A DNA stretch of 64,000 nt, taken from contig PABH01000029.1 of assembly GCA_002702705.1 (NCBI GenBank), positions 1 through 64,000 on the forward strand, read 5' to 3'. This DNA comes from Anaerolineaceae bacterium (GTDB taxonomy: Bacteria > Chloroflexota > Anaerolineae > Anaerolineales > Anaerolineaceae). Below are positions 1,664 to 32,937 of this stretch, piece after piece; positions within the stretch are counted from its first letter, which is position 1; every line of letters starts with the position of its first letter. A program made the position numbers and the translations under genes. A model generated the notes under the pieces. That model worked only from the letters and a program-made list of their open reading frames with translations. It did not search any database and had not been told where the DNA came from.

Positions 1664-2146
1664 TTAGTCCTTCAATTGACGCTGTTCCAACAACATCATC
1701 AGCATAAGTACAATGACGCCCAGGACGATGAAACTGTCTGCCAGGTTAAAGGTCGGCCAGCGGGTGCTCCCTAATCCCACGTCAAGAAGGTCGGTGACGC
1801 GCCTATCGGGAAGCCTATCTACGAAGTTGGCGATGGCTCCGCCAAGAATTAGACCAATAGGCCAACTCGCAACAGGCGGAATTTCATCTGTGCGCAGAGC
1901 ATGCACGAGCCAAATTGCTAGGCTAACAATGATGAGGCCGGTAACAACCAGCGGCCAAACTCCGCCATTGGCGAACAAGCCAAAAGCTACGCCCGTGTTG
2001 TAATTCAATGTCAGCCGGAGGAGCTCCCCGAGGACAGGGACGGGCTGATTAATCTCAAGCGTCTGTTCTACCCAGAACTTGGACAACGTGTCAAGGCCCA
2101 GAACCGGCAAGAACACGGTCAATAAGCGAGGGAATATCCTCTTCAT
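1664..2146 (-). CDS. lspA: Signal peptidase II
   Basis: A 160-residue integral membrane aspartyl protease that cleaves lipoprotein signal peptides after lipidation. Four hydrophobic segments are visible. The catalytic-region motifs are present: GGAIANFVDRL with its Asp, and FNLADSFIVLG with the second Asp, plus the N-terminal GLDTLSKFWV segment. ATG 2146 is chosen over 2161 because GGGAG lies eight bases upstream. The start codon overlaps the stop of the Nramp remnant (ATGA), which suggests translational coupling. Placement inside a metal-resistance operon instead of next to ileS or rluD suggests an accessory copy that travels with metal efflux genes, a known association in mobile metal-resistance islands. 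Confidence 0.93.
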   Translation of the reverse strand: MKRIFPRLLTVFLPVLGLDTLSKFWVEQTLEINQPVPVLGELLRLTLNYNTGVAFGLFANGGVWPLVVTGLIIVSLAIWLVHALRTDEIPPVASWPIGLILGGAIANFVDRLPDRRVTDLLDVGLGSTRWPTFNLADSFIVLGVIVLMLMMLLEQRQLKD

Positions 2147-2322
2147 AACGGCTTCTCCCATTCCAACAAGGTATCCAAATCAAGACACCGCCCCACCTTG
2201 CGCGATTGCACCAATGAAGAGTGCAGGTACAGGTTGTGGGGCATCGTCAGCCGCCAATGCCCGTGTGCAGGCACGGTCACGGATTCATGTACCTCGGAAA
2301 GAGATGGACGCTGTTTTATCAT
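2143..2322 (-). pseudogene. Nramp (MntH-type) transporter, internally deleted remnant
   Basis: A 59-codon open frame. Its first ~22 residues (RPSLSEVHESVTVPAHGHWR) match the cytosolic N-terminus of Nramp metal-proton symporters. The sequence then jumps directly to the TM6 signature (MPHNLYLHSSLVQSR). The whole TM1-TM5 region, including the DPGN metal-binding motif, is missing, and the tail after VQSR does not continue as an Nramp protein. A functional transporter has about 11 helices and 400 residues, so this cannot transport. It overlaps the ArsR stop upstream and the lspA start downstream by four bases each, so translation coupling appears intact despite the deletion. Confidence 0.75.
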
Positions 2323-2660
2323 TCCTCCGAGGCGTAATATCGCGTGCACTGATACACGCCGCAGGCTGCGTCTGACAGCAGAGATTCACCCAAGGCTAGC
2401 AGGTCGCCTACCCGGTCATCACTTAGGCTGTAATAAACGTACTTCCCTTGTTGTTCGGCAGCAACTAAACCACACTCTCGGAGACAGCGCAGGTGGTTCG
2501 ATGTATTGGATTGACTCATACCTGTGGCAGAAACAATTTCGGTGACGGTCAGCGGTCCGCCCAGCAGCGAATATAAGATACTCAAACGATTGGGATCGCC
2601 AAAGCCGCGAAATAGCTTGGATCGCAATTGAACTCCCTCCACGTTGATGACAATTTGCAT
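2319..2660 (-). CDS. ArsR/SmtB-family metal sensor, CmtR-like
   Basis: A 113-residue winged-helix repressor. Residues GFGDPNRLSILYSLLGGPLTV, TGMSQSNTSNHLRCLRECGLV and GKYVYYSLSD form the DNA-binding fold and beta hairpin. A C-terminal Cys pair in CGVYQCTRYY plus the C in LRECGLV suggests a thiolate site for Cd/Pb-type ions like that of CmtR. This is an inference from Cys placement. ATG 2660 follows AAGGAG by about eight bases, which beats the longer start at 2693. It is the first gene of the leftward metal operon, and the palindrome just upstream (2689-2701) is a likely self-operator. Confidence 0.88.
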   Translation of the reverse strand: MQIVINVEGVQLRSKLFRGFGDPNRLSILYSLLGGPLTVTEIVSATGMSQSNTSNHLRCLRECGLVAAEQQGKYVYYSLSDDRVGDLLALGESLLSDAACGVYQCTRYYASEE

Positions 2661-2688
2661 AAATTGATTCTCCTTATTATATAAACAA

Positions 2689-2701
2689 ATCATAATATGA
2701 T
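2689..2701. promoter_or_regulatory. Putative ArsR operator
   Basis: ATCATA-A-TATGAT is a perfect 6+6 palindrome around one base. It lies 28 bases upstream of the CmtR-like ArsR start, in the divergent region between two arsR genes. AT-rich palindromes of this kind are typical ArsR/SmtB operators. Binding is inferred. Confidence 0.55.
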
Positions 2702-2880
2702 GATATGTTAATGACTAGAAACGATTTTGTCAAGAGTGCGATTCCTCTATGGCACCCTGACAGAAGACCTGTGACAAATTTCATGGCTGACTAGTGAGCT
2801 TTGTACATCGCCTGTTTATGAAGAAGTTTGCAGAGGTGTGGTTTGTTTAATCAAGTAATTCTCTTCATCAAGAAAATCTC

Positions 2881-2908
2881 TTGACAGATGGATAGAAAAA
2901 GTTATAAT
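2881..2908 (+). promoter_or_regulatory. Sigma70-type promoter of the second arsR
   Basis: A consensus TTGACA at 2881-2886 and a consensus TATAAT at 2903-2908 are separated by 16 bases. Transcription would begin near 2914-2916, just before the ATG at 2918, so the message would be leaderless or nearly so. This argues against the longer reading-frame start at 2888, which lies inside the promoter. Confidence 0.7.
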
Positions 2909-2917
2909 AATGAGTAT

Positions 2918-3259
2918 ATGAACATTCATTCACATAAATATGAAAAAATATTTGAATCTGATGAAGGATTCCCCCTAGGAGATGAGAATGCTTTGCAACT
3001 TGCAGAGTTATTTACTTCTTTGAGCGATCCTAGTCGCTTGCGGATTTTATCGGTTTTGCTTCGAGGAGAGAAAAATGTCCAGCAAATCAGCCAAATCGTA
3101 GTCATGAGCCATTCAGCTGTCTCTCACCAACTTCGCGGTTTGCGCCAAATGCGAATTGTGCGTACACGTAAACAAGGTCGAATGGTGTTTTATAGCCTGG
3201 ACGATGATCATGTAAAAGAGTTGTTCCTTTTGGGATTGGATCATGTCTGCCATGAATAA
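2918..3259 (+). CDS. ArsR/SmtB-family repressor with alpha5 metal site (CzrA/SmtB-like)
   Basis: A 113-residue winged-helix sensor. The core is LFTSLSDPSRLRILSVLL, then VVMSHSAVSHQLRGLRQM, then RKQGRMVFYSLDDDHVKEL. The C-terminal helix carries D-x-H-x10-H-x2-H (DDH ... HVCH), the alpha5 zinc/cobalt site of SmtB, CzrA and NmtR-type sensors, so Zn, Co or Ni sensing is likely. The N-terminus (MNIHSHKYE) adds His residues. The start at 2918 is set by the overlapping promoter. Its stop overlaps the following small membrane gene, and it probably controls the ATPase at 3628. Confidence 0.88.
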   Translation: MNIHSHKYEKIFESDEGFPLGDENALQLAELFTSLSDPSRLRILSVLLRGEKNVQQISQIVVMSHSAVSHQLRGLRQMRIVRTRKQGRMVFYSLDDDHVKELFLLGLDHVCHE

Positions 3260-3539
3260 AACTCGAATATTTAATGATCGTATCATTGTTGTTTTATTTT
3301 TGTTGGTCACATGTATCGTTTGCGCCCGTTTTCTGCATGATATGCTGCCTGGGCATTCAGATGTGATCACAAGCAGTTCTGGCTTATGTAGTGGAGTTGT
3401 TCATTTCGACATTATTCTGGGAGTAGTTTCAGGGTTGGTGCTAATTGGGTTGACGATAAAAAGTCACCATCCACATAAGTTGTTCATTCGTTTAATCAAC
3501 TTGCATGTTTTTGATCCTCCCCCTCGTTCATTAATTTAA
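3243..3539 (+). CDS. Small two-helix membrane protein, unknown
   Basis: 98 residues. It overlaps the end of the upstream arsR by 17 bases, which supports co-translation. Two hydrophobic segments are visible (about residues 13-30, IIVVLFLLVTCIVCARF, and 56-72, IILGVVSGLVLIGLTI), separated by a short loop with His, Cys and Ser (PGHSDVITSSSGLCSG). The tail is basic and His-rich (KSHHPHK). The family is not recognised. Its place between a metal sensor and a metal ATPase suggests a role in metal handling. A terminator follows at 3559. Confidence 0.6.
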   Translation: MSAMNKTRIFNDRIIVVLFLLVTCIVCARFLHDMLPGHSDVITSSSGLCSGVVHFDIILGVVSGLVLIGLTIKSHHPHKLFIRLINLHVFDPPPRSLI

Positions 3540-3558
3540 CGTATAACGATTCCTGAAC

Positions 3559-3580
3559 GGGGACTGATCCCCCTTTTTTT
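3559..3580 (+). terminator. Rho-independent terminator
   Basis: GGGGA-CTGA-TCCCC followed by C and seven T. It lies between the arsR/small-membrane pair and the P-type ATPase, so it could terminate or attenuate read-through into the ATPase. Confidence 0.7.
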
Positions 3581-3627
3581 AAGGCTGCTTAATTGTAATG
3601 AAAAGAAATACAGAAAGGTTAATATAA

Positions 3628-6027
3628 ATGACTGAAAAAACGGTTGAAATCTCTTTGCCAGTACTTTTACCTGAAATTCAAGATGCGCGTGATATTTGTG
3701 TGGATAAGCTCCAAGCAAGTATGCAAGATCATAAAGGCATCCTCCAAACACATGTACATATGGATCATGATCCAATTGATTTATGTATCCATTACGATCC
3801 AAATCTAATTTCATTGGCTGCGGTCAAACGAATTGCGGAGGATGCAGGATCAGAGTTGAGCAACGGTTACCGTCACGAACAAATTTCTTTTAGTGGTCTG
3901 GACAGTGCTGATTCGGCTTCAATGATCGCCTCAGAGCTTGAAAACCTGAAAGGAATGCTGCATGCAAATGCGAGCTACGCCTCAGGGCTCGCAATTGTGG
4001 CGTACGATACGAAAGTACTTTCTCTAGATCAAATCCAGCGCACCATGAAACGTTATGGCGCTCGTCCTTCCGTTCAATTGAAGGCAAAAGAAACCAAGGA
4101 AGAACACGATCATGACCACGGAAGTGCCCCTGCCTTTATGCCGCACTGGCTCCAAAACCGTTGGACGTTGGTTTTAATATCGGTTGGCGGTATATTTTTA
4201 CTCTTGGGTTGGGGTGGAGAGCAATTCCTGGGATTGCCAGCAAACATTGCTTTAATTTTTTTCCTGCTTTCTTATGTTGCAAGCGGATATGATATAACAC
4301 ATCACGCCATTCCGGCACTTTTGCGGGGTAAGTTTGATACAGATGTGCTAATGTTAGCAGCTGCGGTTGGCGCTGCTATTTTAGGGGCATGGGCTGAAGG
4401 CGCATTTCTCCTTTTCCTATTTGGGCTAGGACATGCTGGCGAGCATTATGCCCTGGGTAGAGCCCGTAACGCGATCAACTCATTGGGAGAATTGATGCCG
4501 AAGACCGCTCAGGTATTACGTGATGATAAGATCGTTGAAGAACCAGTCGAGCAGCTCTCTATTGGTGATGTGGTTGTTGTTCGCCCAGGAGACCGTATAC
4601 CGGTTGACGGGGTGATTTTGCAAGGTGAGAGTGCCATCGATCAGAGTCCTATTACCGGGGAGTCGGTCCCTGTTCAAAAGGGTATTGAGGATGAAGTATT
4701 TACTGGAACGATCAACCAGGAATCTTCACTTGAGATAAAAACTACCCGGCTGGCGAAGGACAACACCTTGAGCCGAGTCATGAAAATGGTAGCAGAAGCT
4801 CAAGGACAGCAAAGTCCTACCCAGCAATTCACCGAACGGTTTACCGCTCGGTTTGTTCCGATTGTGCTGATTTTGGTTGTGTTGGTTGCAGTGGTACCGC
4901 CCTTAATTGGCTTAATGCCATTTTCAGAGAGTTTTTATCGAGCTATGCTTCTTCTCGTCGCAGCTTCACCTTGTGCATTGGCTGTTGGTACCCCGGCAGC
5001 AGTTCTGGCTGGGGTTGCCCAGGCGGCGCGCAATGGCGTATTGATTAAAGGTGGCGTTCATCTTGAGAATCTCGGGCGTCTGAATGCGATGGCTTTTGAT
5101 AAGACCGGAACACTTACGCAGGGTAAATTTCAAGTGACAGACATTGTACCTTTCAATGGCGCAAACCCCGATGAAGTCTTACGATTAGCAGGTGCTGTGG
5201 AACAGCAGTCAAATCATCCATTAGCGTTAGCGGTTGTTCGTGCTGCTAAAGAAAAGAATCTCACCCTGCCTGTAGCAAATGGTTTGGAGAATATTCCAGG
5301 CCGTGGTGTACGCAGTCAAGTCGAAGGCCATCCAATTTGGATTGGATCTCTCAAACTTTTCGAGGAAAAGGACGAGAATGCTGTTGATGCCGATATTCGA
5401 CAAACTGTAGAAGCGTTGGAGAACGCTGGTCGCACGACAATGACGATTGGTCGCGGTGGTACTTTTCTTGGGGTCCTGGCTTTGGCAGATGTGGCAAAGC
5501 CAGGTGTAGCTGGCGTCCTTTCTCAGTTACGTAAACTGGGTGTGAAGCACTTGATCATGTTAACAGGTGACAACCAGAGGGTAGCACAGCAGATTGGAAA
5601 GGAGATTGGGATCACAGATGTTGAAGCGGAATTACTGCCTGAAGATAAATTAAACACGATACAACGTTTACAAAAAGAGTATGGGGCCGTTGCGATGATG
5701 GGAGATGGTGTAAACGATGCACCAGCGCTGGCGACCGCTACGGTTGGGATTGCTATGGGAGCCGCAGGGACAGCGGTAGCGCTTGAGACTGCCGATGTGG
5801 CTTTGATGGCGGATGATCTAGGCAAGCTTCCATTTGCAGTCGGTCTGAGTCGGGCCAGCCGGGCCATCATCAGCCAAAACCTTGCCATCTCCCTGGGTGT
5901 GATTGGGGTGTTGATAGTGACATCGGTGATAGGGTTGATGCCATTGAGCGGAGCGGTTATTTTCCATGAAGGCAGCACGATCCTGGTGGTGATGAATGCA
6001 CTTCGCTTGTTGAGATTCCAGATCTGA
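3628..6027 (+). CDS. P1B-4-type heavy-metal P-type ATPase
   Basis: A 799-residue ATP-driven metal exporter. The core is complete: TGES actuator loop (ITGESVPV), ion-binding SPC (S447-P448-C449, ASPCALAVGTPAAV), phosphorylated D491 in DKTGTLT, the HP motif (SNHPLALAVV), TGDN and MGDGVNDAPAL hinge motifs, and HEGST in the last helix. SPC with HEGST is the signature of the P1B-4 group, which exports Co, Fe, Zn or Cd depending on the member. Unusually for this group it has a long N-terminus of ~170 residues with two degenerate ferredoxin-like HMA domains lacking CxxC and a His/Asp-rich linker (EEHDHDHG, about residues 158-166). An arsR with an alpha5 Zn/Co site lies upstream, which suits inducible efflux. 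Confidence 0.95.
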   Translation: MTEKTVEISLPVLLPEIQDARDICVDKLQASMQDHKGILQTHVHMDHDPIDLCIHYDPNLISLAAVKRIAEDAGSELSNGYRHEQISFSGLDSADSASMIASELENLKGMLHANASYASGLAIVAYDTKVLSLDQIQRTMKRYGARPSVQLKAKETKEEHDHDHGSAPAFMPHWLQNRWTLVLISVGGIFLLLGWGGEQFLGLPANIALIFFLLSYVASGYDITHHAIPALLRGKFDTDVLMLAAAVGAAILGAWAEGAFLLFLFGLGHAGEHYALGRARNAINSLGELMPKTAQVLRDDKIVEEPVEQLSIGDVVVVRPGDRIPVDGVILQGESAIDQSPITGESVPVQKGIEDEVFTGTINQESSLEIKTTRLAKDNTLSRVMKMVAEAQGQQSPTQQFTERFTARFVPIVLILVVLVAVVPPLIGLMPFSESFYRAMLLLVAASPCALAVGTPAAVLAGVAQAARNGVLIKGGVHLENLGRLNAMAFDKTGTLTQGKFQVTDIVPFNGANPDEVLRLAGAVEQQSNHPLALAVVRAAKEKNLTLPVANGLENIPGRGVRSQVEGHPIWIGSLKLFEEKDENAVDADIRQTVEALENAGRTTMTIGRGGTFLGVLALADVAKPGVAGVLSQLRKLGVKHLIMLTGDNQRVAQQIGKEIGITDVEAELLPEDKLNTIQRLQKEYGAVAMMGDGVNDAPALATATVGIAMGAAGTAVALETADVALMADDLGKLPFAVGLSRASRAIISQNLAISLGVIGVLIVTSVIGLMPLSGAVIFHEGSTILVVMNALRLLRFQI

Positions 6028-6058
6028 AACGGAAAAGCAAAAACCTCACGGGAAAACC

Positions 6059-6379
6059 TTGCTGAAACATGAGACAAAAAATGACTATCGAAACAAACCA
6101 TCGCATTTACTTGTAGTTGTGTATGGGTTGATGCTGATTATCCGGCTAATGTATGGGTGGCAGGCTAACCGTAAAGGTGGTAAAGTTGTTATGCGGCGCG
6201 AACTAGGTTGGTCACTGATCTTAATGGGAATATTGATATTCTTAGCGAATGGTATTCTCTTGGTTGTCATCCTATGGCCCAGTACAATCAAAACTGCATC
6301 CATTGCACTTTCGGAAGGATGGCGTATGCAAAAAATGCCGACCAGTTTATCCCAAAGGGATTGGGTTTTTCATGAATAA
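6059..6379 (+). CDS. Small membrane protein, unknown
   Basis: Up to 106 residues from a TTG at 6059. The first in-frame ATG (6131) would leave 82. Two hydrophobic stretches (VVVYGLMLIIRLMYGW and LGWSLILMGILIFLANGILLVVIL) flank a basic loop (RKGGKVVMRRE). No family was recognised. It lies just after the ATPase and overlaps the start of the methyltransferase by eight bases, which is the best evidence that it is translated. The start codon is uncertain. Confidence 0.5.
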   Translation: MLKHETKNDYRNKPSHLLVVVYGLMLIIRLMYGWQANRKGGKVVMRRELGWSLILMGILIFLANGILLVVILWPSTIKTASIALSEGWRMQKMPTSLSQRDWVFHE

Positions 6380-6983
6380 TCGTTCTAATTTACGGATTTA
6401 TCGCCGATTCGCTCCACTCTATGATCGTTTTATGTACTCATGGACGGCTGGTTCACGCCGAAAGACAATCGAACTACTCGACCTCAAGCCAGGGGACCGG
6501 TTGTTTATTCCAGGGGTGGGTACTGGACTTGATCTGCCATTTGTTCCTTCTGAGACTCTTACCACGGCTGTCGACCCAAGCCCGATGATGCTGCGGCAGG
6601 CGCTGAGTAAATACGACTCCCCGGTTGGTTTTCTTATTATGGATGTTCAGATATTGGCGTTTCCCAGTGGCCTTTTTGATGCAGTATTGATTAATTTAAT
6701 CCTTTCTGTTGTACCCGATGGAGCCATTGCCATGGAGGAAATCTGGCGCGTGCTGAAACCTGGTGGGCGGGTGGTAATCTTCGACAAGTTTCTGCCAGAG
6801 AGCAGTAGTCTTTCCAGTGTTCGGCTGTTATTAGGCAAATTGATCCGCCAGATCGGAACTGACCCCAATCGCCGTCTGAGCACAATTATTCAAGAAGTTC
6901 CAGAAGCTCTTGTCCTGGCTGATCAGCCGGTGCTGTTGAATGGGCAATACAGGATTATCCTCCTGAGCAAGCCAATGGTGTGA
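6372..6983 (+). CDS. Class I SAM-dependent methyltransferase (UbiE/Methyltransf_11-like)
   Basis: About 203 residues. The SAM-binding motif I is FIPGVGTGLDLPFVP, followed by the acidic residue in AVDPSP, motif II DAVLINLILSVVP and motif III VLKPGGRVVIFDK. The Rossmann fold is complete and the C-terminus short, as in small-molecule or lipid methyltransferases. It resembles the methyltransferase at 24160-24777 (same GVGTG-DxPFxP pattern), so the two may be paralogues. The start at ATG 6372 follows a GGGA stretch and overlaps the upstream small membrane gene. Substrate unknown. Confidence 0.8.
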   Translation: MNNRSNLRIYRRFAPLYDRFMYSWTAGSRRKTIELLDLKPGDRLFIPGVGTGLDLPFVPSETLTTAVDPSPMMLRQALSKYDSPVGFLIMDVQILAFPSGLFDAVLINLILSVVPDGAIAMEEIWRVLKPGGRVVIFDKFLPESSSLSSVRLLLGKLIRQIGTDPNRRLSTIIQEVPEALVLADQPVLLNGQYRIILLSKPMV

Positions 6984-6995
6984 TCAGGAGGAAGT

Positions 6996-7454: not shown

Positions 7455-7531
7455 GAGGTATTGGTCTTTGATGAAGCTGTTCCACAAAACTATTGACAGA
7501 TCGATAATTGGATTATATGGAGACTTTCTTT

Positions 7532-8293: not shown

Positions 8294-8348
8294 AGGGAAA
8301 CGCTCAAATGATAGGAGACTTAAGAAAGGTGGTTTGTATATACGGCCT

Positions 8349-8672
8349 ATGATCAGATTGGCACGGCTGGGCTTGAGCCTGATATTCATGCCGTTGGTTT
8401 TTGCCCTAACGTTCACAACCGCAATGGATGTGGATTGTGAAATGCGAAATGCCCCGCTTTGTTATTTCAGCGTGGGGTGTTCCGATCAAAATTATGGGTT
8501 GGAGCCTGACAATTGTACGCATTGTACGAGTGTATTTCCTGAGACAGCCTATCAGGTCTTGCCGGCACATCCCTTAATGGTATTCGCATCTTCTGCTCCC
8601 TTCGTGAAAACTTCTAGGGCATCGCAATTATTACGCCCTCCCATTGGTGCATCCCTGAATCAAACTGCCTGA
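8349..8672 (+). CDS. Small Cys-rich exported protein, unknown
   Basis: 107 residues from ATG 8349. A TTG at 8334 is an alternative but lies too close to AAAGGTGG. A basic N-terminus and hydrophobic stretch (LGLSLIFMPLVFALTFTT) look like a signal peptide or anchor. Five Cys follow, at CEMRNAPLCYF, GCSDQ and NCTHCTSVF, so disulfides or metal binding are plausible. It sits between the CcdA-like and DsbA-like genes, which fits an extracytoplasmic thiol role. No family was recognised, and it recalls the small exported Cys protein at 31369. Confidence 0.5.
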   Translation: MIRLARLGLSLIFMPLVFALTFTTAMDVDCEMRNAPLCYFSVGCSDQNYGLEPDNCTHCTSVFPETAYQVLPAHPLMVFASSAPFVKTSRASQLLRPPIGASLNQTA

Positions 8673-8781
8673 CACCTCCATTGCGATGATGAGTCGTTCG
8701 GCTGAGGTTATTAATATTTGGCTTAAGTAAGAGCCAATTATTTAAGAGATAGAATTTTTTAATGTGAATAAGGAAAAAAAA

Positions 8782-9531: not shown

Positions 9532-9634
9532 AACGAGCATCTTCTGATTAGCGGGATTTCCGACATGCATATTCCAAACAGGTTATGCAATGCAGCCTAT
9601 TACGAAAACAATCCCTCTTTGAAGAAGCATATGA

Positions 9635-9697
9635 GTGCTGTATCGAATATCCATATGATATTTCCTGAGCTAAGGCGCCGGATGTTCGATACAGCAC
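9635..9697. repeat. 13-bp perfect inverted repeat in intergenic region
   Basis: GTGCTGTATCGAA (9635-9647) and its exact complement TTCGATACAGCAC (9685-9697) enclose 37 bases. It lies between the DsbA-like gene and the PCu(A)C-like gene, ending 31 bases before the latter. No T-run follows, so an RNA processing structure or regulator site is more likely than a terminator. Confidence 0.6.
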
Positions 9698-9728
9698 AAA
9701 TCAGCGAAAAAGGTACCAGGAGATGGAA

Positions 9729-10160
9729 ATGCGACACTTCCGAGTTGGTTTATTGATAACTTTGCTTATGCTTGCCTTGTCCGCCTGTGCGAGCGCAGGA
9801 GAATTTAAGATTATGGATGCCTGGATCAAGCCGGGTAAAATCGGTTCTACGAGCGAAGCATTTCTGATCATCAGCAACGCGACAGGCACAAGTGATTCGC
9901 TTGAGAGCATCAGTTCTGATGCTGCTTCGTCTATAGAGATTCGTTCACAAGATCAAGATAAGAGTGGACGGATAACCATGAAGGTAATAGAATCCGTGCC
10001 CGTGCCTGCCCAGCAGGAAGTGATTTTTAAACCCGGCGAGTTAGCGATCGCCCTGACCGGGCTAAAGCAAGATTTAGAACCGGGAGATACCATTGATTTG
10101 ACTTTGAATTTTAAAAACGCTGGGATCATGACGATTCAAGCCAAGGTCAACGAGCATTAA
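9729..10160 (+). CDS. PCu(A)C-like lipoprotein lacking copper ligands
   Basis: About 143 residues, ATG 9729 with AGGAG six bases upstream. A lipobox (LALSAC) predicts a lipoprotein. The cupredoxin-like PCu(A)C fold is recognisable (DAWIKPG, VIFKPGELAIALTGLKQDLEPGD, LTLNFKNAG). Canonical members hold Cu(I) with H-x10-11-M-x21-H-x-M. Here the first His region reads SSIEIRSQDQD and the GGLHIML segment is replaced by GELAIALTGL, so both His and the last Met are gone. Compare the intact paralogue at 10890. The fold probably remains while copper binding is lost or altered. Confidence 0.72.
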   Translation: MRHFRVGLLITLLMLALSACASAGEFKIMDAWIKPGKIGSTSEAFLIISNATGTSDSLESISSDAASSIEIRSQDQDKSGRITMKVIESVPVPAQQEVIFKPGELAIALTGLKQDLEPGDTIDLTLNFKNAGIMTIQAKVNEH

Positions 10161-10264
10161 GAGTGGACCAGGCAACAATTTTATTTGACTTCTAAGAAAC
10201 CAGTTAGTGGCCTTAAAATAAATATTGACGTGAAGATTTTAAATTATAGACGGCGCGGCCTTGT

Positions 10265-10867
10265 TTAATTTTCGGCGTCGATTTCCTTCAGGATATATTG
10301 TATATCTTGTAAAATATCTTCGTATGGCGTCCCAAAAGCATAGGTAAGGCGCATGCGACCTTCGCTATCGATCAAATAAACCCGTGCGGTATGGTCCATC
10401 GTGTACCCTATGCCGGATTTCAGGGAAACCTTCACCGCATAAATCCCATAATCCTCTCGAACTGCTGCAAGTTCTTCTTCTGTACCGGTTAAGCCGATAA
10501 TATTTTCATGGAAGTTCGATACATAGGCTTTTAATTTTTCGGGGGTGTCCCGTTCTGGGTCAACCGTTATGAACAAATAAGAAAGGTTTACTGATTTATC
10601 TCCAAGGTTTTCGATAATCCGTTTTGAATCGCTAAGAGTAACCGGGCAAACATCAGGGCAAGTTGCGAACCCGAAGAAAAGCAACACAATTTTCCCTTTC
10701 AAGTCACTCAGACGCAACCGGCCACCATCAGCACGGGTTAGCTCAAAATCGGCAGCGTCAGGAGGATCTTCATAGGATGTGCCTTTGAATTGATAGGGTT
10801 GACAGGATGCCAATAAAAAAAGCATCAACAATCCACCCATGAAAATTGGTCGAATAGCGTGTTTCAT
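10265..10867 (-). CDS. SCO1/SenC-family copper chaperone
   Basis: A 200-residue lipoprotein (lipobox LLASC at residue 22). Thioredoxin fold with the copper site C70-P-D-V-C74 (FATCPDVCPVTLSD) and the distal H159 (MDHTARVYLID). Other family markers are FITVDPERDTPEKLKAYV and the GLTGTEEE loop. Sco proteins deliver copper to the CuA site of cytochrome oxidase or reduce its Cys ligands. It is transcribed just after the canonical PCu(A)C gene (22-base gap), the usual Cu-delivery partner. Confidence 0.92.
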   Translation of the reverse strand: MKHAIRPIFMGGLLMLFLLASCQPYQFKGTSYEDPPDAADFELTRADGGRLRLSDLKGKIVLLFFGFATCPDVCPVTLSDSKRIIENLGDKSVNLSYLFITVDPERDTPEKLKAYVSNFHENIIGLTGTEEELAAVREDYGIYAVKVSLKSGIGYTMDHTARVYLIDSEGRMRLTYAFGTPYEDILQDIQYILKEIDAEN

Positions 10868-10889
10868 GTTTTTTACTCACCGAATTGTT

Positions 10890-11330
10890 TTAGGGTTCTC
10901 TGACCTTTACGTTCAGCACAATTTCACCGGCCTTTTCAAAACGTAGGGTTAGGGAAACTTCATCGCCGACCGCCAGAGGTTGTTTCAGGTCCACTAACAT
11001 AATATGCAAGCCCCCTGGTTTGAACTCTACTTCCCCACCTGCTGAGACCTCTACATTTTCGCGTGGTGTCATGCTCATCACGCCGTTATCATCGGCCATG
11101 GACTCGTGAACCTCTGCAGCTTGCGCCGACGGAGTATATGCGCTGATCAGTTTATCCGCTTCTTTACCATCATTTACGATCTGGAAATAGATAGCGCCGT
11201 TCATATCGACGCCAGCTGAAGGACGTGCCCACGCATCTTCGATTTTGATTTGCAGTCCTGTTGATTGTTGAGCACAGCCGGTCAAAACCAGGATGGCGGA
11301 AAGAGAAAGGATTGCGAAAATTTTCAACAT
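10890..11330 (-). CDS. PCu(A)C copper chaperone, canonical
   Basis: 146 residues from ATG 11330, preceded by GGGAGGTG. It is a lipoprotein (lipobox VLTGC at residue 19). All ligands of the PCu(A)C motif are visible: H75 in AEVHESM, M87 in GVMSM, H109 and M111 in GGLHIML, with the exact 21-residue gap between M87 and H109. It binds Cu(I) outside the membrane and hands it to Sco or directly to cytochrome oxidase. It forms a two-gene leftward unit with the SCO gene. Confidence 0.9.
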   Translation of the reverse strand: MLKIFAILSLSAILVLTGCAQQSTGLQIKIEDAWARPSAGVDMNGAIYFQIVNDGKEADKLISAYTPSAQAAEVHESMADDNGVMSMTPRENVEVSAGGEVEFKPGGLHIMLVDLKQPLAVGDEVSLTLRFEKAGEIVLNVKVREP

Positions 11331-11530
11331 AAGAACACCTCCCGAAAACAATCCCGCAATATTATGAAAACGACAGTTAACGATCAAATCTGGAATATGG
11401 TGTCACAGCATTCGAACCAAGTGTATTATATCCATAAACAATCCACTTTTCGCCAGCACAGTTAACCTTTAACAAGGGGGAGAGGAGGTAAAAGGTGGAC
11501 ACCAGATACAATATAATCTCATGAAAAATA

Positions 11531-26139: not shown

Positions 26140-26823
26140 TTATTGTGATTTTGCGAGTAGATCTTGGATCTTTCGGCTCAAAATCTCATATTGGCCGCCG
26201 CCTTCAATATATTGTCCATTTACCAACAGTGAAGGAGTACCCCGTAACCCTATTTTTGTAGCTTCTAAAGTTTCAGCCTTTACTTTGTCAGAGTATTTAC
26301 CAGAAGCAAGACACTGGTTGAACTCATCCGTTTGTAAGCCCAATTCAACGGCAAAGGTATTTAGGTTTTCTTTTGTAAAAGCACCCATGTTTTCACCACT
26401 TTGTGAGGCATACAACTTGTCATAGTAATCCCAGAATTTTCCTTGTTCATTGGCACATTCAGCAGCTTCAGCTGCCCAAAACGATTCTTCACCAATGAAT
26501 TGAAAACTCCGGAAGACAAACCGAACCTGGCCAGTGTTTACGAAATTTTCTACCAGCTTCGGTTTTACAGTCGAAGCGAACCGGGCACAGGCAGGACATT
26601 GAAAATCGCCGTACTCAACGACAATGACCGGTGCATCTGCAATCCCCATACTTTTATCCTGACTAACAACGACCGGTTCGACTTTATCCGGGTTTTGTCG
26701 CAGCGCGATTGCAATCACCCCAATCACCACCATGGCTATTAACCCAATTACCCACCAGTTGGTTTGTTTCCGTTTATTTTTAGACTGTTTACTTGTTTTT
26801 GACTTTGCGTATTTCTTAGCCAT
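26140..26823 (-). CDS. Membrane-anchored DsbA-family protein
   Basis: 227 residues from ATG 26823, with AAGGTG upstream. A Lys/Ser-rich cytosolic start (KKYAKSKTSKQSKNKRKQ) and one helix (WWVIGLIAMVVIGVIAIAL) anchor the DsbA domain. The active site is CPAC in YGDFQCPACARF, and the cis-Pro loop is GTPSLLVNGQ. It is the last gene of the redox operon, 26 bases after the CcdA-thioredoxin gene, which could recycle it. Confidence 0.88.
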   Translation of the reverse strand: MAKKYAKSKTSKQSKNKRKQTNWWVIGLIAMVVIGVIAIALRQNPDKVEPVVVSQDKSMGIADAPVIVVEYGDFQCPACARFASTVKPKLVENFVNTGQVRFVFRSFQFIGEESFWAAEAAECANEQGKFWDYYDKLYASQSGENMGAFTKENLNTFAVELGLQTDEFNQCLASGKYSDKVKAETLEATKIGLRGTPSLLVNGQYIEGGGQYEILSRKIQDLLAKSQ

Positions 26824-26849
26824 ATCATCACCTTTTTTGTGTCTTGTTC

Positions 26850-28055
26850 TTATAGAACCCATATTAAAAGGGCTAATCCAATAAGCGCCATGATCCCACC
26901 TGTAATCCCACGTACCTTGTGGGACGAGGCCCGTTCCCATGCCTGGATCTTTGCTCCCATAATTGGATTGAGCGCTAAAGCCAGGATTATAATCAATGGC
27001 AAGATAAACATCAGGTTATATAATGCCAGATATCCAAACCCTTCCCAGAAACCTGCCTGGCTGCTCAACAAGCCTAAAATGGCAACATAAGGACCGCCTG
27101 AGCATGGAAAACTTTCAAGCCCCATCAAAGTTCCCAGCACAATCGTAGCGGGTATAGTCGCCCGATACATCCATTTCTTGAGCCCGTCTTTCCCAATTTC
27201 GGGAATTTCCAAACGAATGGGAAACTTGGGAAATAAAGCTCCAAAGAGATTGGTCAGTCCAAACAGGAGTAGCAGAGCTGCCCCCAATTGACCAAGCCAG
27301 TGGCCTTGTACAAGGGTGGTCGCGCGAAGTAATCCCAGACCTACCAGAAAATAAACGATGTAGACGCAGGCAATATAGATCATCCCCATCCGGGCAATAG
27401 CTGCCCGTCGCTTGCGTATCGTGAAAAGGAATGTAACAAAGAAGAGCAAAATTGCCATTGCGCATGGATTGATCCCATCTACTAGGCCGGTGAAGAGGAC
27501 GGCCGGAAGGATCGTGCTCTTAGGGGTGGAACTATTTGTAATTTTAAAGGAAGACAGGTTGGCCTGATACCATGCCAGGTAGGTAGAAATAGGTTCGCTG
27601 GCTGTGTACGACTGGATTGGCCCAGCGAAAGCCCAGGCTTTATATCCGTCTCCTTCACCTTCTTCACTGTAAATCAAAATCTTGTCGGGTAATTCCGATG
27701 CTGATGCTGACAATAAGGCTTCTACAACCTGTCGGGGTGGTTCTCCCTGCAAAATGATCCGGTTGTCATCAATGAAGGTCACTAAGTGACTTTGAAGATC
27801 CAATGGAACACCCAAGTTGTCATTTTGTTGATTCAATTCCTTACGGGTCTCACGCTGGTTGATATAATCCTTGCGGACCAATTCCACTTGGTATGCCTTG
27901 AAGATTTCCTGCAATTCTCCATTGATGTATGTTTCGCACTCATCACATGCTTCGTTGTAATATACAACCGCTTGTCGGGAGTTAGATGTTGCTTGGACAG
28001 TAAGTGTGGATAGGGCAAGCGTTAAAAGAAAAAGGATTGAAAGTGTTTTTTTCAT
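26850..28055 (-). CDS. CcdA/DsbD-like transmembrane protein with N-terminal thioredoxin-like domain
   Basis: 401 residues. A signal peptide is followed by a thioredoxin-like domain with C37-x2-C40 (YYNEACDECETY). A second half has about six to eight helices, with Cys helices DGINPCAMA (C198) and ESFPCSGGPY (C318) as in CcdA/DsbD electron carriers. The layout suggests transfer of electrons from the cytosol to the extracytoplasmic domain or to the DsbA next door. It lies between the ferredoxin and the DsbA gene. Confidence 0.82.
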   Translation of the reverse strand: MKKTLSILFLLTLALSTLTVQATSNSRQAVVYYNEACDECETYINGELQEIFKAYQVELVRKDYINQRETRKELNQQNDNLGVPLDLQSHLVTFIDDNRIILQGEPPRQVVEALLSASASELPDKILIYSEEGEGDGYKAWAFAGPIQSYTASEPISTYLAWYQANLSSFKITNSSTPKSTILPAVLFTGLVDGINPCAMAILLFFVTFLFTIRKRRAAIARMGMIYIACVYIVYFLVGLGLLRATTLVQGHWLGQLGAALLLLFGLTNLFGALFPKFPIRLEIPEIGKDGLKKWMYRATIPATIVLGTLMGLESFPCSGGPYVAILGLLSSQAGFWEGFGYLALYNLMFILPLIIILALALNPIMGAKIQAWERASSHKVRGITGGIMALIGLALLIWVL

Positions 28056-28079
28056 GGTTAGTTTATCCTAAGATCAATG

Positions 28080-28433
28080 TTAGCAACAGGTTAATGTTTT
28101 TGGCACTTCGCCTTCTGCAAGTGGACCAAAAGGGTTGCCGTATTCGCGAATATTGGCAATCATCGCCTGGTTGGCTGGTGTTTCTATACTGGCTTCAATT
28201 AACCCTGCTCGAAGTGTTTCTCCGGCTGGGTCATGTCCGATAGGACAAACAACCCGGCAACTTCGGCATAATGTGCATTGATAGAAAACCAGGGTTCGGA
28301 TGCCAGCGGATCCCAGGATTGCTCGGCCACGGGGACTGAATTCTTCTTGTTGTTGGATCTGAAACACCGGACATGCTTCACGACAGAGCCCGCACTCGGT
28401 GCAGACGGGATTTTCAAGAAGTTCTATTAGCAT
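28080..28433 (-). CDS. Small 2[4Fe-4S] ferredoxin-like subunit (GlcF/HdrC-like)
   Basis: 117 residues. Two Cys motifs, CTECGLCREACP and CTLCRSCRVVCP, bind two [4Fe-4S] clusters as in HdrC, GlcF and LutB. Alone it lacks the CCG domains of GlcF, which are encoded separately at 29600. It overlaps the FAD oxidase gene by seven bases. It likely transfers electrons between the flavoprotein and the CCG subunit. Confidence 0.85.
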   Translation of the reverse strand: MLIELLENPVCTECGLCREACPVFQIQQQEEFSPRGRAILGSAGIRTLVFYQCTLCRSCRVVCPIGHDPAGETLRAGLIEASIETPANQAMIANIREYGNPFGPLAEGEVPKTLTCC

Positions 28434-29596
28434 AGCTTCCCCCGATTAAAGACACCTTGCGGGTCAAACTGGGTTTTCAGTGCCTGCGCCTTCACCTTCA
28501 TGGCCAGACTGGCCCACTGCCGCTTTTTAAGGCCCATCCCATGTTCGCCGCTGATTTGCCCACCTGATGCTGAAACCCGGTGGTAAAGTTCGAGGATACG
28601 GGGATCACCTTGTAAAAACCTAGGATGGATAATGCCAACACCTAGGTGCCCAAAAACTGGGATACCCTGAATGGCAAGCCAGTCCAGTGTGCTTTCTTGG
28701 GCCTCTGGCAAGATTTGTGGATCCTCTGAAATTGGGAAGCCAGCCAGCGTTAATCGGGCTGAAAGGCTTTCGCGGGCTCTCCAGATTGCAGCCATATCAA
28801 TTGTGGCTTCGACTTTACCGTCCATACTGTGAAATTCGGCCAGCAATGTATGTTTGGCTGCCCATCCCACCAAAGCGGCAGCCTGTGGATTGATGTATTC
28901 CAACGCAGAAAGTGATGGATTTGCTTTCAAGTGTGCGACTTCCTCCAACATACCTTTTAAGTCATCAAAACAAAGCAGTGTGAGCGAGCGTTGCTGAGGA
29001 ATCTCTGTAAGATGAAGGGCGGCTTGAACGATCATGCCCGTGATTCCTTCCCAACCCGCGATTCCTCCCCGGTCACCGGCAGATAAATGATGGATAATGC
29101 CTTTTCCATCGATCAGGGTTGCTTCTGCAACCCACTCGTCTATCCGACCATACCGGACAGCGTGCAGACCGGCTGCATTGGTGGCGATCATCCCACCGAT
29201 GGTTGCGGAGCGATGACTGCCCGGGATCACCGGAAAAAACAACTCAAAGGGTTTCAAGTGGCGGTTAAGCAGGTCAAGTGGAACACCAGCTTCTACGACG
29301 ATCTTATTCGCTGGAATGTCTATGGAACCAATTTGCCTTAAACGTGCTGAGTCGATGACGACTGAGTTTTGAGGTGTGGCACCGCCACAAAGGCCGGTAC
29401 CGGCTCCTCTAGGAACCAGGTCATTTCCGGTTTCGGCAGCCCATCCTATCAGACGGATCATATCCTCTATTGTTTCCGGCCAGACAACCGCCAGGCACTC
29501 TCCGTGGATTCGAGATGCATCTCGGCTGTAAGCAATCCGGGTTTCGTGGCGAATGGAGATCTGGTCGGGATGAAATAATGAGAGTAATTGCTGCAT
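28427..29596 (-). CDS. FAD-linked oxidase (GlcD/D-lactate dehydrogenase-like)
   Basis: 389 residues. The FAD-binding-4 domain shows VPRGAGTGLCGGA, VVDSARLRQI and PGSHRSATIGGMIATNAAG. The C-terminal domain ends in SGEHGMGLKKRQW and FDPQGVFNRGKL. It is shorter than usual GlcD (~480), mainly in the cap region. The family oxidises 2-hydroxy acids such as glycolate or D-lactate, but the substrate cannot be read from sequence. The gene is four bases from the CCG gene and overlaps the ferredoxin gene. Confidence 0.85.
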   Translation of the reverse strand: MQQLLSLFHPDQISIRHETRIAYSRDASRIHGECLAVVWPETIEDMIRLIGWAAETGNDLVPRGAGTGLCGGATPQNSVVIDSARLRQIGSIDIPANKIVVEAGVPLDLLNRHLKPFELFFPVIPGSHRSATIGGMIATNAAGLHAVRYGRIDEWVAEATLIDGKGIIHHLSAGDRGGIAGWEGITGMIVQAALHLTEIPQQRSLTLLCFDDLKGMLEEVAHLKANPSLSALEYINPQAAALVGWAAKHTLLAEFHSMDGKVEATIDMAAIWRARESLSARLTLAGFPISEDPQILPEAQESTLDWLAIQGIPVFGHLGVGIIHPRFLQGDPRILELYHRVSASGGQISGEHGMGLKKRQWASLAMKVKAQALKTQFDPQGVFNRGKLC

Positions 29597-29599
29597 CGG

Positions 29600-30316
29600 T
29601 TAAATCCTCCCTTCCAAAGTGGATATGATGGCTTCGCTAAACTCCAAAACCTGTATATGGACGGCATTTTCTTTGAAGTGAGCATAACACAACGGGCATG
29701 ATGTACATAACATTCCATTACCCACCTGTGCAAGACGCGCTTGCGCTATGGAGTTTGCCAAGTCAGGATAATTTGACTTAACCCCGCCACCCGCACCGCA
29801 ACATAGGCTCATAACACGGTTGTCCGGGAGTTCGGTGACTTGCCAGCCTGCTTGATGAAGGAGGTGTCGCGGCTCATCATAGATCCCTGACCACCGGCCC
29901 AAATGGCAAGGGTCATGATAGGTTAATGGCCGGTTTTGATTAACCTCATATTTTGATGGGTCTCCAGTACTTTTTTCCGATAATACCTGGGTAGTATGAA
30001 CTACATCCATCTGGTACTCGTTCTTCAAGGTGTGATAACATCCAGGACAATTTGTAATGATTTTCGTGACACTAAAACGCGCAAAAGTCTCAAGATTTTT
30101 AGCCTTCAATTGTTCAAAATCCTGTTGATATCCGGCTCGCCTGACAGGACTGCCGCAACATTGAAGCTCGCCGGGTAAAACGATGAAATCGATCTTTACT
30201 TGCCTTAATAGTCGTTCATATCGTTCCTGCACCTCAGGCAATGCATAGCGAGTAACACAGCCTGGGTAATAGAGGGTGTTCCCACCGCTAAACTTACTGA
30301 AAAAATTTTTAAACAT
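29600..30316 (-). CDS. CCG-domain iron-sulfur protein (HdrB/LutA/GlcF C-terminal type)
   Basis: 238 residues with two CCG domains: LQCCGSPVRRAGY with a preceding YYPGCVTRYA, and SLCCGAGGGVKSNYP with YHDPCHLGRW. Such pairs bind a non-cubane or [4Fe-4S] cluster in HdrB and appear in LutA and GlcF. Together with the ferredoxin and FAD subunits it forms a split GlcDF/HdrBC-like complex. It is four bases from the DUF1573 gene. Confidence 0.85.
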   Translation of the reverse strand: MFKNFFSKFSGGNTLYYPGCVTRYALPEVQERYERLLRQVKIDFIVLPGELQCCGSPVRRAGYQQDFEQLKAKNLETFARFSVTKIITNCPGCYHTLKNEYQMDVVHTTQVLSEKSTGDPSKYEVNQNRPLTYHDPCHLGRWSGIYDEPRHLLHQAGWQVTELPDNRVMSLCCGAGGGVKSNYPDLANSIAQARLAQVGNGMLCTSCPLCYAHFKENAVHIQVLEFSEAIISTLEGRI

Positions 30317-30319
30317 CGG

Positions 30320-30742
30320 TTATCCTTCTGGATTCTCGATAATGACTCGGAACTCAGCTTCCGCTTCTGGCGTTACCGGATCATTGCTGCGCAAATAGAT
30401 AATGCGCTGGATATCGCCAAACAAGTTATCTTCTACTGGGTCAAACTTGGCGGTTAATTTGGCCGTTTCTCCTGGAGGAATGCTGTCCTTCTCTAATTCC
30501 GCTGAAGTGCATTCGCACGAAATGCTAACTTTTTCAATCACCAGGTCCGCATTGCCAATGTTTTTTACCTCGAATACGAGATTAATCATCTGTTGAGGTT
30601 GTGTTCCTAAATCCTGTAGAGGTGGCTCAACGCTTATTTGTGGAACTTTACTGCTGCATGCAGCTAAAAAACTTGTCATGAGGAGCAAAAAGAACAGCAA
30701 GGTTGGACTTAAGTAAGATGGTGTTATTTTACGAATAGCCAT
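30320..30742 (-). CDS. DUF1573 lipoprotein
   Basis: 140 residues. Signal with lipobox (FLAACSS), then a single Ig-like DUF1573 domain (IGNADLVIEKVSISCECTSAELE, PPGETAKLTAKFDP, IIYLRSNDP). The Cys pair in SCECTS is the conserved family feature. Function is unknown. In this operon, a possible substrate or scaffold for the neighbouring Dsb and rhodanese proteins. Confidence 0.8.
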   Translation of the reverse strand: MAIRKITPSYLSPTLLFFLLLMTSFLAACSSKVPQISVEPPLQDLGTQPQQMINLVFEVKNIGNADLVIEKVSISCECTSAELEKDSIPPGETAKLTAKFDPVEDNLFGDIQRIIYLRSNDPVTPEAEAEFRVIIENPEG

Positions 30743-30762
30743 ATTGTATCCTTCAAAATTGA

Positions 30763-31227
30763 CTAAGGATTGGTTTCTACCGGAAAGTCAGCTTCTTGCC
30801 AGGCTCGAAAACCACCTAAAATGGGGGTAACTTTCTTGAAACCGTTATCTAACAAAATGCGCGCCGCACGGGCGCTTGATTCTTCTGACGGTCAGGTACA
30901 GTAGGTTATGATCCAGGCATTCGGATCAAGTTCTTTATATTGGTTGCCCAATTGAGCGAGTGGATAGGAGAGGGCATTAGGAACATGTGCTTGGGCATAT
31001 GAACTACTGTCTCTGACATCAATAAATACCGCTTCGCTCGATTTGTAAGCAGCGAGTGCATCATCTAGGGAAACTCTCGGAATCTCGGGAAATGTCTCTT
31101 CCTCAGCCGCTAGGGGTTGTGAACTTGGGGAGGTGTTTTTTGGTTGCGCACCTAAAACGATAGCAGAGGCTAGCATAACTATGCCTAGAAATATCAGAAC
31201 AATCGGTAAATAAGCTTTTTTCTTCAT
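30763..31227 (-). CDS. Exported rhodanese-like protein, candidate selenoprotein (in-frame TGA)
   Basis: Residues 1-111 include an anchor helix (PIVLIFLGIVMLASAIVLGA) and a rhodanese domain (EAVFIDVRDSSSYAQAHVPNA). The frame meets TGA at 30892-30894 in YCT-TGA-PSEESSARAA. It then continues without a frameshift through a normal rhodanese end (ILLDNGFKKVTPILGGFRAW) to TAG at 30763-30765, 154 residues in all. As I recall, homologues often have YCxCPxE here, so the TGA stands for the second Cys. A GC-rich hairpin lies 16 bases after the TGA (separate entry). Selenocysteine at residue 112 explains this without a broken gene. A recent nonsense mutation is the alternative. It heads the redox operon. 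Confidence 0.6.
30861..30875 (-). promoter_or_regulatory. bSECIS-like hairpin after TGA
   Basis: On the coding (minus) strand GCGCC-CGTGC-GGCGC makes five G-C pairs with a five-base loop, the loop having G at its second position. It begins 16 bases after the TGA, with the loop about 21 bases away. Bacterial SECIS elements have a short stem and a loop with an early G at this distance. The stem also encodes Ala/Arg-rich residues, so a chance hairpin is possible. Confidence 0.45.
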
Positions 31228-31368: not shown

Positions 31369-31650
31369 TTAAGCTATTGGGGGTTGAAGAATGGAAAAAA
31401 TGAGTCCTAAATGTGCTATTTGACTATCAATTGCCTTAAATAATGCAAAATGGAGCGGGTTTGTTGTAGTAGAATTTGGAACCCAAATTCCTAATTGCAA
31501 AGTGCAAACCAAGCAATCGGTATCACCGGTTGAACCAGGATTTTCTTGAACCGTGCAGCAGGACGAAGGCGCAGTGATATGGCCAGCTAAATTGATGGCA
31601 GTAAGTAGTAAAAGTATGATTAAAAGGGATCGTTGCACAGTTGTAACCAT
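31369..31650 (-). CDS. Small exported Cys protein, unknown
   Basis: 93 residues. A hydrophobic N-terminus (SLLIILLLLTAINLAGHI) is followed by Cys residues in SSCCTVQE and TDCLVCTLQ, then a second hydrophobic-rich tail. It recalls the small exported Cys protein at 8349, though the sequences are not clearly homologous. It lies upstream of the rhodanese gene, with a 141-base gap. A real gene is plausible but not proved. Confidence 0.45.
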   Translation of the reverse strand: MVTTVQRSLLIILLLLTAINLAGHITAPSSCCTVQENPGSTGDTDCLVCTLQLGIWVPNSTTTNPLHFALFKAIDSQIAHLGLIFSILQPPIA

Positions 31651-31689
31651 AGATTGAGGAAAGTGTACCTTGGTTTTATTGCTATGTCA

Positions 31690-31718
31690 AACCTTTAGGC
31701 TGACAACCTTTAGGCTGA
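31690..31718. repeat. Short tandem direct repeat
   Basis: AACCTTTAGGCTGA occurs twice with a 15-base period (31690-31703 and 31705-31718) at the end of the broken lmbE. It duplicates five codons. Confidence 0.6.
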
Positions 31719-31812: not shown

Positions 31813-32937
31813 CTAAATTTTTAAACCATTCATCAAAGACAATGAAACTACCAAATTGTTGATAATTGCCAGATTATGCCCTGTGTTACCAACCACCGTG
31901 CGCGTAGCATCCTCACCCAGGGTAATATCACGGCGATAATGCAATTCATTTTCAATCCCCCAATATTTTCGTAGAAGTTTGATTAACTGCTCCGGGCTGG
32001 CTTTGTCGGGAGATAAACTGGTTAGCCCATAAACGACTTGGGTTGTTTTTCGTTGCCCCTGGTCATGCCACACCTCACGTTCCAATCGGAATACTTGAGC
32101 TACATGCGGCCAATCGAGATAAGTATTGAGAGATTGGCTAACCATAATGGATCGTTTTTCAATGCGACCATGTCGTTTATTCGTTTTATCAAACCCCTGT
32201 TGGAATTGTTTGGAGAGCGGTCTTTCTTGTTTTAGGTTCGCTATTTCATTGGCAAACAATTTCTTAATAGCCCATTCAGTACGCGCTTGGTTGCCTTTGA
32301 CTGTCCAAATAAAATCTCCTCCAGCTTCGACAATTTCAACGCTGATGTTTCGTTGGGTATGCATCGCATCTCCAATAATGATTGCGCCATTCAAATCGAT
32401 ACTTTCTAGAAGTGTTGGCGCTGCTGTGATTTCATTTTCTTTTCGATCGACAGCCACCTGCATCAAAACAAGCCCTGATCCTGGCAATTAGGCGGCTAAT
32501 AGGTGTTCCCCGCGTGTTTCTTGCCGCACAATGGTGCCTCGCAAGCTCTTTCCATCAATACTGATGATGATCTCTTCTCCATCAGGTATGTGGCTTCGTT
32601 GATACTCCCCCATGATCTTTTCAAACATGTCGGATTCTAGTGCTTCTAGTATCCGACGGATTGTACAATGATGCGGCACTTTCTTCCGTGGCAGTTTTAG
32701 CATCCAGACTAATCCTTCTTCCCGATGTTTGATCCATTCCGCTATCCCCGTTGGATGATTTTCTCCTCCCATTTTTCCCAATAGGATTAATAATAATATC
32801 GTCGCCAGATGATAGCGCACTCCTTTTGGTTTTCTTGGATCACTTATGCGTTCTAAATAGGCATATAAACTGTTTAGATCAAATACAAAACCCCAATGTG
32901 TACAATTTTCTTTTGCGCCTATCGTGATAAAATCCAT
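31813..32937 (-). pseudogene. ISAs1-family transposase with in-frame stop
   Basis: The N-terminal half (DPRKPKGVRYHLATILLLIL, then HIPDGEEIIISIDGKSLRGT) and C-terminal half (NGAIIIGDAMHTQRN, FIWTVKGNQ, YWGIENELHYRRDITLGEDA) are in the same frame. They are separated by TAA at 32488-32490, where homologues have Tyr (HLLAAY). The DDE residues are in the two halves. A single base change would restore a full protein of about 375 residues. Recent inactivation is likely since ends and target duplication are intact. Confidence 0.85.

Follow-up and report, generated by a model that had tools for sequence, protein, structure and literature searches.

A conserved Chloroflexota operon joining a split flavin and iron-sulfur module to a CcdA-type carrier and a predicted rhodanese selenoprotein: a candidate electron relay to exported thiols and selenols

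Introduction

The locus considered here lies in a stretch of 64,000 nucleotides from an Anaerolineaceae bacterium (assembly GCA_002702705.1, contig PABH01000029.1, positions 1 to 64,000 of the forward strand; this whole stretch is termed the window, and coordinates refer to it unless a locus number, such as L043, is given). The question it raises is whether a flavin and iron-sulfur (Fe-S) module and a set of exported thiol proteins, encoded in one operon, belong to a single electron path. An earlier note on this DNA had described the operon as seven genes in one tight leftward run, and had proposed that a split dehydrogenase, coupled to a CcdA-type carrier and exported thiol proteins, may pass electrons from an organic acid or thiol to exported disulfides or sulfur. 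We find that the arrangement of the operon is more than chance and that there is strong evidence, from sequence, for selenocysteine (Sec) in its rhodanese. The operon could constitute an outward electron relay keeping exported thiol and selenol proteins reduced, a reading to which we give about an even chance.

The operon and its conservation

The seven leftward genes, all on the minus strand, were confirmed by open reading frames and by Pfam/NCBIfam searches at the positions originally assigned. In gene order they encode a membrane-anchored rhodanese (30763..31227), a DUF1573 lipoprotein with a HYDIN/VesB-type Ig fold (30320..30742), an HdrB-like protein with two CCG domains (29600..30316), a short GlcD/LDHD-type flavin adenine dinucleotide (FAD) protein (28427..29596), a two-[4Fe-4S] ferredoxin (28080..28433), an exported thioredoxin-fold domain fused to a CcdA-type membrane domain (26850..28055; below, the CcdA protein) and a membrane-anchored DsbA/Thioredoxin_4 protein (26140..26823), for which a start at 26823 is more likely than one at 26940. 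The successive intergenic gaps are 20, 3, 3, -7, 24 and about 26 nt, and so include one overlap. The domains recognised are rhodanese, DUF1573/HYDIN-Ig and Thioredoxin_4/DSBA in the exported part, and double CCG, FAD_binding_4 with FAD-oxidase_C, and dicluster Fer4 in the electron trio; the CcdA-like membrane protein gives weak family matches.

A single search with the CcdA protein as query, across 84,980 species genomes, returned 17 loci, and the order rhodanese-DUF1573-CCG-FAD-ferredoxin-CcdA-DsbA is common to all of them as far as the contigs reach, except that L061 shows no DsbA, that a cupin gene stands between ferredoxin and CcdA in L062, and that L063, a contig of 4.5 kb assigned, perhaps by mis-binning, to Bipolaricaulota, shows no rhodanese. 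The hosts are Anaerolineaceae, other Chloroflexota and this one doubtful Bipolaricaulota metagenome-assembled genome. The source genome holds a second copy (L043) with a CcdA protein 80% identical, and the first branch within the Anaerolineaceae set of a concatenated tree is the window copy. A CcdA with about 80% identity is present as 13 copies, in 11 of 147 genomes of the family, and the short ferredoxin is found at exactly those 13 places (212-229 bits), whereas the next ferredoxin match scores 57 bits and lies in fused proteins about 437 residues long; CcdA and this ferredoxin co-occur 13 times out of 13, and neither is found at that score elsewhere in these genomes. Because the order recurs in 17 loci and a second copy, and because ferredoxin and CcdA keep strictly together, the arrangement is more than chance, and the coupling of the trio with a CcdA-type carrier and with exported thiol proteins is borne out as genetic linkage. 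A gene order unique to the source strain, the finding against which the earlier note had set its proposal, is rejected, since 17 further loci and the second copy share it.

The gene set is rare across the wider phylum, where the source genome alone carried it among 400 sampled. Likewise, of 301 Chloroflexota genomes sampled, only the source genome showed the short free-standing CCG protein (238 residues), while the other CCG matches listed lay almost all within longer frames, and a plasmid search with the FAD protein gave generic relatives only (at most 31%). Locus L099 has the order DsbA-DUF1573-Trx/CcdA-DUF1573, with neither the electron trio nor the rhodanese; because such a donor-less version exists, the trio appears to be a source of electrons acquired in addition, which suggests that it joined an older exported-thiol module. 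The short CcdA-only relatives in L100-L104 showed no matching gene context.

Selenocysteine in the rhodanese and in DsbA

The earlier note had named the rhodanese as a candidate selenoprotein, and several lines of evidence now argue strongly for this prediction. The gene spans 31227-30763 by reading through an in-frame TGA at codon 112 (30894-30892), which yields the motif Y-C-T-U-P, and the TGA is kept in all 15 operon rhodaneses. Of the 31 degenerate codons whose amino acid is invariant, only six are the same in every one of the 11 diverged genes compared, and five of these six are consecutive, at +6 to +10, an event with a chance of about 4e-5 by our own arithmetic. These five codons encode a hairpin resembling a selenocysteine insertion sequence (SECIS), GCGCC-CGUGC-GGCGC (30861..30875, minus strand), 19-33 nt after the UGA. 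The consensus hairpin has an energy of -9.3 kcal/mol and no Rfam match; it is the codon argument that carries weight, because single-sequence folding is unconvincing (z about -1) and covariation is uninformative for a stem that never varies.

The source genome holds both SelB (377 bits) and tRNA-Sec (72 bits), as do most operon genomes. Genomes G420 (L053) and G433 (L055) have neither, and there the rhodanese (L053:5508-5969; L055:6832-7293) carries an additional TAG while the remaining operon genes are still open, an apparent decay after loss of the Sec machinery that counts as one event and not two, because in the tree the two do not differ in their operon proteins. The conserved UGA, the frozen hairpin, the presence of SelB and tRNA-Sec and the decay in the Sec-less lineage together point strongly to a selenoprotein. 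A frameshift, sequencing error or pseudogene is ruled out by the conservation of the TGA in 15 of 15 copies and by the frozen codons downstream.

Beyond the rhodanese, the DsbA gene, which encodes CPAC in the window, also has an in-frame TGA in the distant relatives L059 and L060 (UPWC and UPYC), whereas DUF1573 has Cys in all operon copies seen. The same rhodanese family is present in 61 of the 147 family genomes, with TGA at every place among the roughly 70 matches listed, most of which are stand-alone genes; against the NF041203 profile rhodanese_LYCAU the operon protein scores 72 bits, below the cut-off of 115.

The stand-alone Sec rhodaneses, about 35-50% identical (e.g. L105:8943-9371, G000:C11), lie in unrelated gene contexts and always have TGA, with no Cys version among the matches listed.

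The electron trio

The reading of the FAD, ferredoxin and CCG proteins as a split GlcD/GlcF-HdrBC-like trio is supported by the Cys sets of the CCG protein, the motifs of the ferredoxin and the fold of the FAD protein. The CCG protein has two CCG domains, both with full five-Cys ligand sets (invariant C20, C53-C54, C90, C93 and C137, C172-C173, C204, C207, C210), and among NCBIfam profiles it matches TfrB best (160 bits), followed by GlcF at 53 and HdrB at 46. TfrB is part of the thiol-dependent fumarate reductase, a thiol/disulfide enzyme. By its ligand sets the protein is a candidate of HdrB type, which would be predicted to have non-cubane clusters and disulfide reductase activity.

The ferredoxin corresponds to the N-terminal half of a GlcF/HdrC-CCG protein that has been split. 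It has two 4Fe-4S motifs, keeps the NPFG segment that leads into CCG in fused proteins and then stops, ending in Leu-Thr-Cys-Cys (LTCC-COOH), a tail that all 19 of the 19 copies share without change. In mercuric reductase and in thioredoxin reductase, electrons or metal are handed on by mobile C-termini of the Cys-Cys or Cys-Sec kind, and the simplest reading of LTCC, by analogy, would be a dithiol exit tail.

The FAD protein is modelled (predicted local distance difference test, pLDDT, 77.6) with a D-lactate dehydrogenase fold, its best PDB match being mouse LDHD (template modelling score 0.84). H317, H324, E351 and H352 are invariant, and we take them to be the metal-binding His-His-Glu and the catalytic His. 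The protein is about 70 residues shorter than D-lactate dehydrogenases, and no conserved Arg was found in the EDP segment aligned to their VPxxR, the Arg of which presumably binds the substrate carboxylate. Because this Arg is missing, an organic-acid electron donor, as the earlier note had envisaged, is doubtful: it is possible but not supported.

The membrane carrier and its exported partners

The CcdA protein begins with an exported thioredoxin-fold domain bearing CDEC (C37-x-x-C40), for which the top Foldseek matches were CopG and thioredoxins, none below an E-value of 0.001. In the membrane domain C198 (NPC) and C318 (FPC) are invariant and 120 residues apart, which we take to be the CcdA/DsbD spacing. 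Its profile matches are restricted to sub-threshold SfLAP and ArsG (Pfam/NCBIfam), and no sequence match to a solved structure was obtained. Every exported partner carries a redox-type Cys or Sec motif; in the DUF1573 lipoprotein this is C-x-C-T, besides the lipobox Cys, and the lipoprotein scores 40 bits, below cut-off, against NF041425 (OS_HP2 (seleno)protein).

The metal-gene neighbourhood

A P1B ATPase gene is present in the fetched flank of 11 operon copies (L043, L050, L052, L053, L055-L060 and L062), that is, in 10 of the 17 fetched loci and beside the second copy in the source genome, where about 4% of 20-kb neighbourhoods would be expected to hold one, given 11 P1B ATPase genes in 5.9 Mb. 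The four ATPases scanned (L043, L059, L060) are of Zn/Cd/Pb/Hg type by profile. Since the position of the ATPase varies, upstream in L059, L060 and L062 and downstream in the others, its link with the operon seems to have arisen more than once.

An outward electron relay and its alternatives

CcdA/DsbD carriers normally take electrons from thioredoxin, and hence from NADPH. In the relay that we propose, some donor would reduce the FAD protein, from which electrons would travel by way of the ferredoxin, with its two [4Fe-4S] clusters, and the pair of HdrB/TfrB-like CCG sites, which appear suited to thiol-disulfide chemistry, and would exit as a dithiol on the C-terminal Cys-Cys tail of the ferredoxin. 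This tail, replacing thioredoxin, would reduce the CcdA membrane domain (C198/C318), and CcdA its own exported thioredoxin domain (C37xxC40), which could in turn reduce the CxxC or UxxC of DsbA, the CxU of the Sec rhodanese and the CxC of the DUF1573 lipoprotein. The purpose would probably be to restore or shield extracytoplasmic thiols under soft-metal (Zn/Cd/Pb/Hg-type) stress, in the manner in which Scs (suppressor of copper sensitivity) proteins act for copper. What the analysis shows is the parts with their motifs, the Sec, the strict linkage and the metal genes nearby; complex formation, the direction of the electrons, the step at the Cys-Cys tail, all substrates and the stress role are what we infer. 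The earlier proposal is partly supported, and its core, which couples a split dehydrogenase to CcdA and to exported thiols, is the best explanation, at roughly equal chances of being right or wrong; nothing in the analysis shows the sulfur or polysulfide acceptor that the proposal had included. That the flavin/Fe-S/CCG complex represents a new, thioredoxin-independent class of electron input for CcdA/DsbD carriers, acting through a mobile Cys-Cys tail to power an exported thiol-selenol relay, we advance more tentatively, as a claim somewhat more apt to fail than to hold.

Several points weigh against this relay. The direction of electron flow is taken from the CcdA/DsbD family, the membrane part of the CcdA protein was modelled too poorly to use (pLDDT < 50), and the FAD protein is without the conserved Arg. 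Its metal aspect rests on gene neighbourhood only: an ArsR-type inverted repeat was not found upstream of the operon, though present at the ATPase/ArsR promoters, and L047-L049, L054 and L061 have no ATPase in the fetched flank.

The strongest alternative, although we consider it unlikely, is that CcdA, DsbA, DUF1573 and the rhodanese form a thioredoxin-fed, Scs-like envelope system, and that a hydroxyacid dehydrogenase of the cytoplasm, distinct from it, is merely encoded on the same transcript; the two halves would be co-regulated but electrically uncoupled. Thioredoxin is indeed the usual CcdA/DsbD reductant, L099 encodes the exported half but no trio, and the fold of the FAD protein is LDHD-like; but the substrate Arg is missing from that fold, and an LTCC tail is of no obvious use to a plain dehydrogenase. 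The unbroken co-occurrence of ferredoxin and CcdA and the interleaved gene order in every copy also speak for coupling, as does the fact that CcdA is the trio's sole candidate partner, no other membrane or quinone partner being found in the operon.

A role in sulfur handling, in which the Sec rhodanese would load or unload sulfane sulfur outside the membrane and CcdA electrons would release sulfide, for example in soft-metal precipitation or polysulfide use, seems quite unlikely. The rhodanese domain itself, the P1B ATPases nearby and the participation of HdrB-like proteins in sulfur oxidation would fit, but the active loop C-T-U-P is a redox CxU, unlike a single-Cys sulfur-transfer loop, and no SoxYZ, LbpA or sulfur-carrier gene is found in the operon; moreover, it is the rhodanese that is lost in the Sec-less L053 and L055, where the other genes stay open. 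Transformation of a metal(loid) or organometal, with the Cys-Cys tail and the selenols binding metal as in mercuric reductase or SAO systems, is very unlikely: the metal genes lie close by, and MerA- and SaoC-type proteins use CC-COOH tails and Sec (PMC13188914), but no Mer or Sao family match occurs in the operon, and the exported DsbA/DUF1573/CcdA set suits protein thiol exchange better. Least probable is supply of reductant for cytochrome c maturation, with CcdA feeding a ResA-like apocytochrome reductase. In L081, ResA/CcmF-like genes do occur close to distant Trx-CcdA relatives (about 35%), but the surroundings of the operon copies showed no genes for cytochrome c maturation.

Relation to known systems

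The nearest known system we take to be Tso, the three-selenoprotein operon (TsoB rhodanese/DsbD-fusion selenoprotein and ArsR-type TsoR; NF045694, NF045707), which likewise combines a rhodanese, a DsbD/CcdA-type function, Sec and nearby ArsR/SmtB regulators. In contrast, the present operon has separate genes, an added FAD/ferredoxin/CCG trio and one Sec in CxU instead of UxxxxU. Membership of Tso is rejected, the rhodanese scoring 30 bits against a TsoB cut-off of 805 and no protein matching TsoA or TsoC. With Scs and DsbD/CcdA relays the operon shares a membrane thiol carrier, a DsbA-like exported partner and metal genes nearby, but it differs in its apparent Fe-S/flavin electron source, its Sec partners and its Zn/Cd- rather than Cu-type ATPase neighbours. 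Dehydrogenases of the GlcDEF, GlpC, LdhH and TfrB/HdrBC types also have an FAD protein, a two-cluster ferredoxin and a double CCG domain; in the operon, however, ferredoxin and CCG are split genes, the ferredoxin ends LTCC, and the FAD protein is short and without the carboxylate Arg. Sec families with the same domains are known, namely rhodanese form 3 (CxU, NF041203), the DsbG-like NF041057 (UxxC) and DUF1573 (UGC), whereas the operon unites the three domains, with Sec in the rhodanese and in the DsbA of two loci. Assignment to the SAO, HgcAB or Mer systems was likewise rejected: the operon has no Sao or Mer match, and its ferredoxin scores 23 bits against HgcB, below 99.

In the available part of a selenoproteome review (PMC13188914), Tso is listed and rhodanese, DsbG-like and DUF1573 proteins appear as separate selenoprotein families, and the gene set of the operon is not described. 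Neither this gene set nor an Fe-S electron source for CcdA/DsbD-type carriers was found described in the open-access literature searched, which is weak evidence of novelty since subscription journals mostly fall outside it. If the proposed relay is correct, some anaerobic Chloroflexota wire a CcdA-type carrier to an HdrB-like Fe-S module and deliver electrons to selenocysteine proteins beyond the membrane. Such wiring would join heterodisulfide-type enzymes, Dsb thiol relays and selenoproteins, fields usually studied separately, and would give DUF1573 proteins and CxU rhodaneses a testable role.

Promoter, first gene and surroundings

The seven-gene content given by the earlier note stands, but it missed an eighth gene and its promoter, as well as the LTCC tail, the Sec that relatives carry in DsbA and the P1B ATPase and ArsR genes nearby. 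The sigma-70 promoter TTGACA-N17-TACACT (31662..31690, minus strand) is the best minus-strand match in the region, and TTGACA-N17-TAnACT, with its 17-nt spacer, stands in the same place in all 10 copies that hold the region, the window included. The first gene (31369..31650, minus strand) encodes a membrane or exported protein of 93 residues with SCC...DCxxC and a C-terminal PPIA, conserved at 46-68% identity across 10 Anaerolineaceae-set loci; it has no Pfam match at E<=1 and belongs to no known family. Because the conserved promoter precedes this conserved gene, the unit counts eight genes in the Anaerolineaceae group, and since the ATG sits 11 nt behind the -10 box, the first gene is presumably leaderless. 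A second small membrane protein of similar layout lies beside the ATPase (3243-3539; L052:15277-15609), ending PPPIR in L052 and having no significant family match.

Upstream of the operon promoter, and ending some 120 bp from it, is an ISAs1-like transposase with one in-frame stop (31813-32937). In the window the metal cassette (1664..6983, mixed strands), identified by homologue families, comprises LspA(-), ArsR(-), ArsR(+), a small open reading frame, P1B ATPase(+) and an S-adenosylmethionine-dependent methyltransferase(+); it lies about 19 kb from the operon, in the same order as beside other operon copies. It opens a metal/thiol island (1664-11387) that continues with DsbD_TM (7508-8293), a DsbA-like protein (8764-9531), two PCu(A)C proteins and SCO1. 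Finally, the distant Trx-CcdA fusion paralogues in L081, L082 and L084 adjoin a conserved pair of small membrane/lipoprotein genes, the paralogue in L081 being the one close to ResA/CcmF-like genes.

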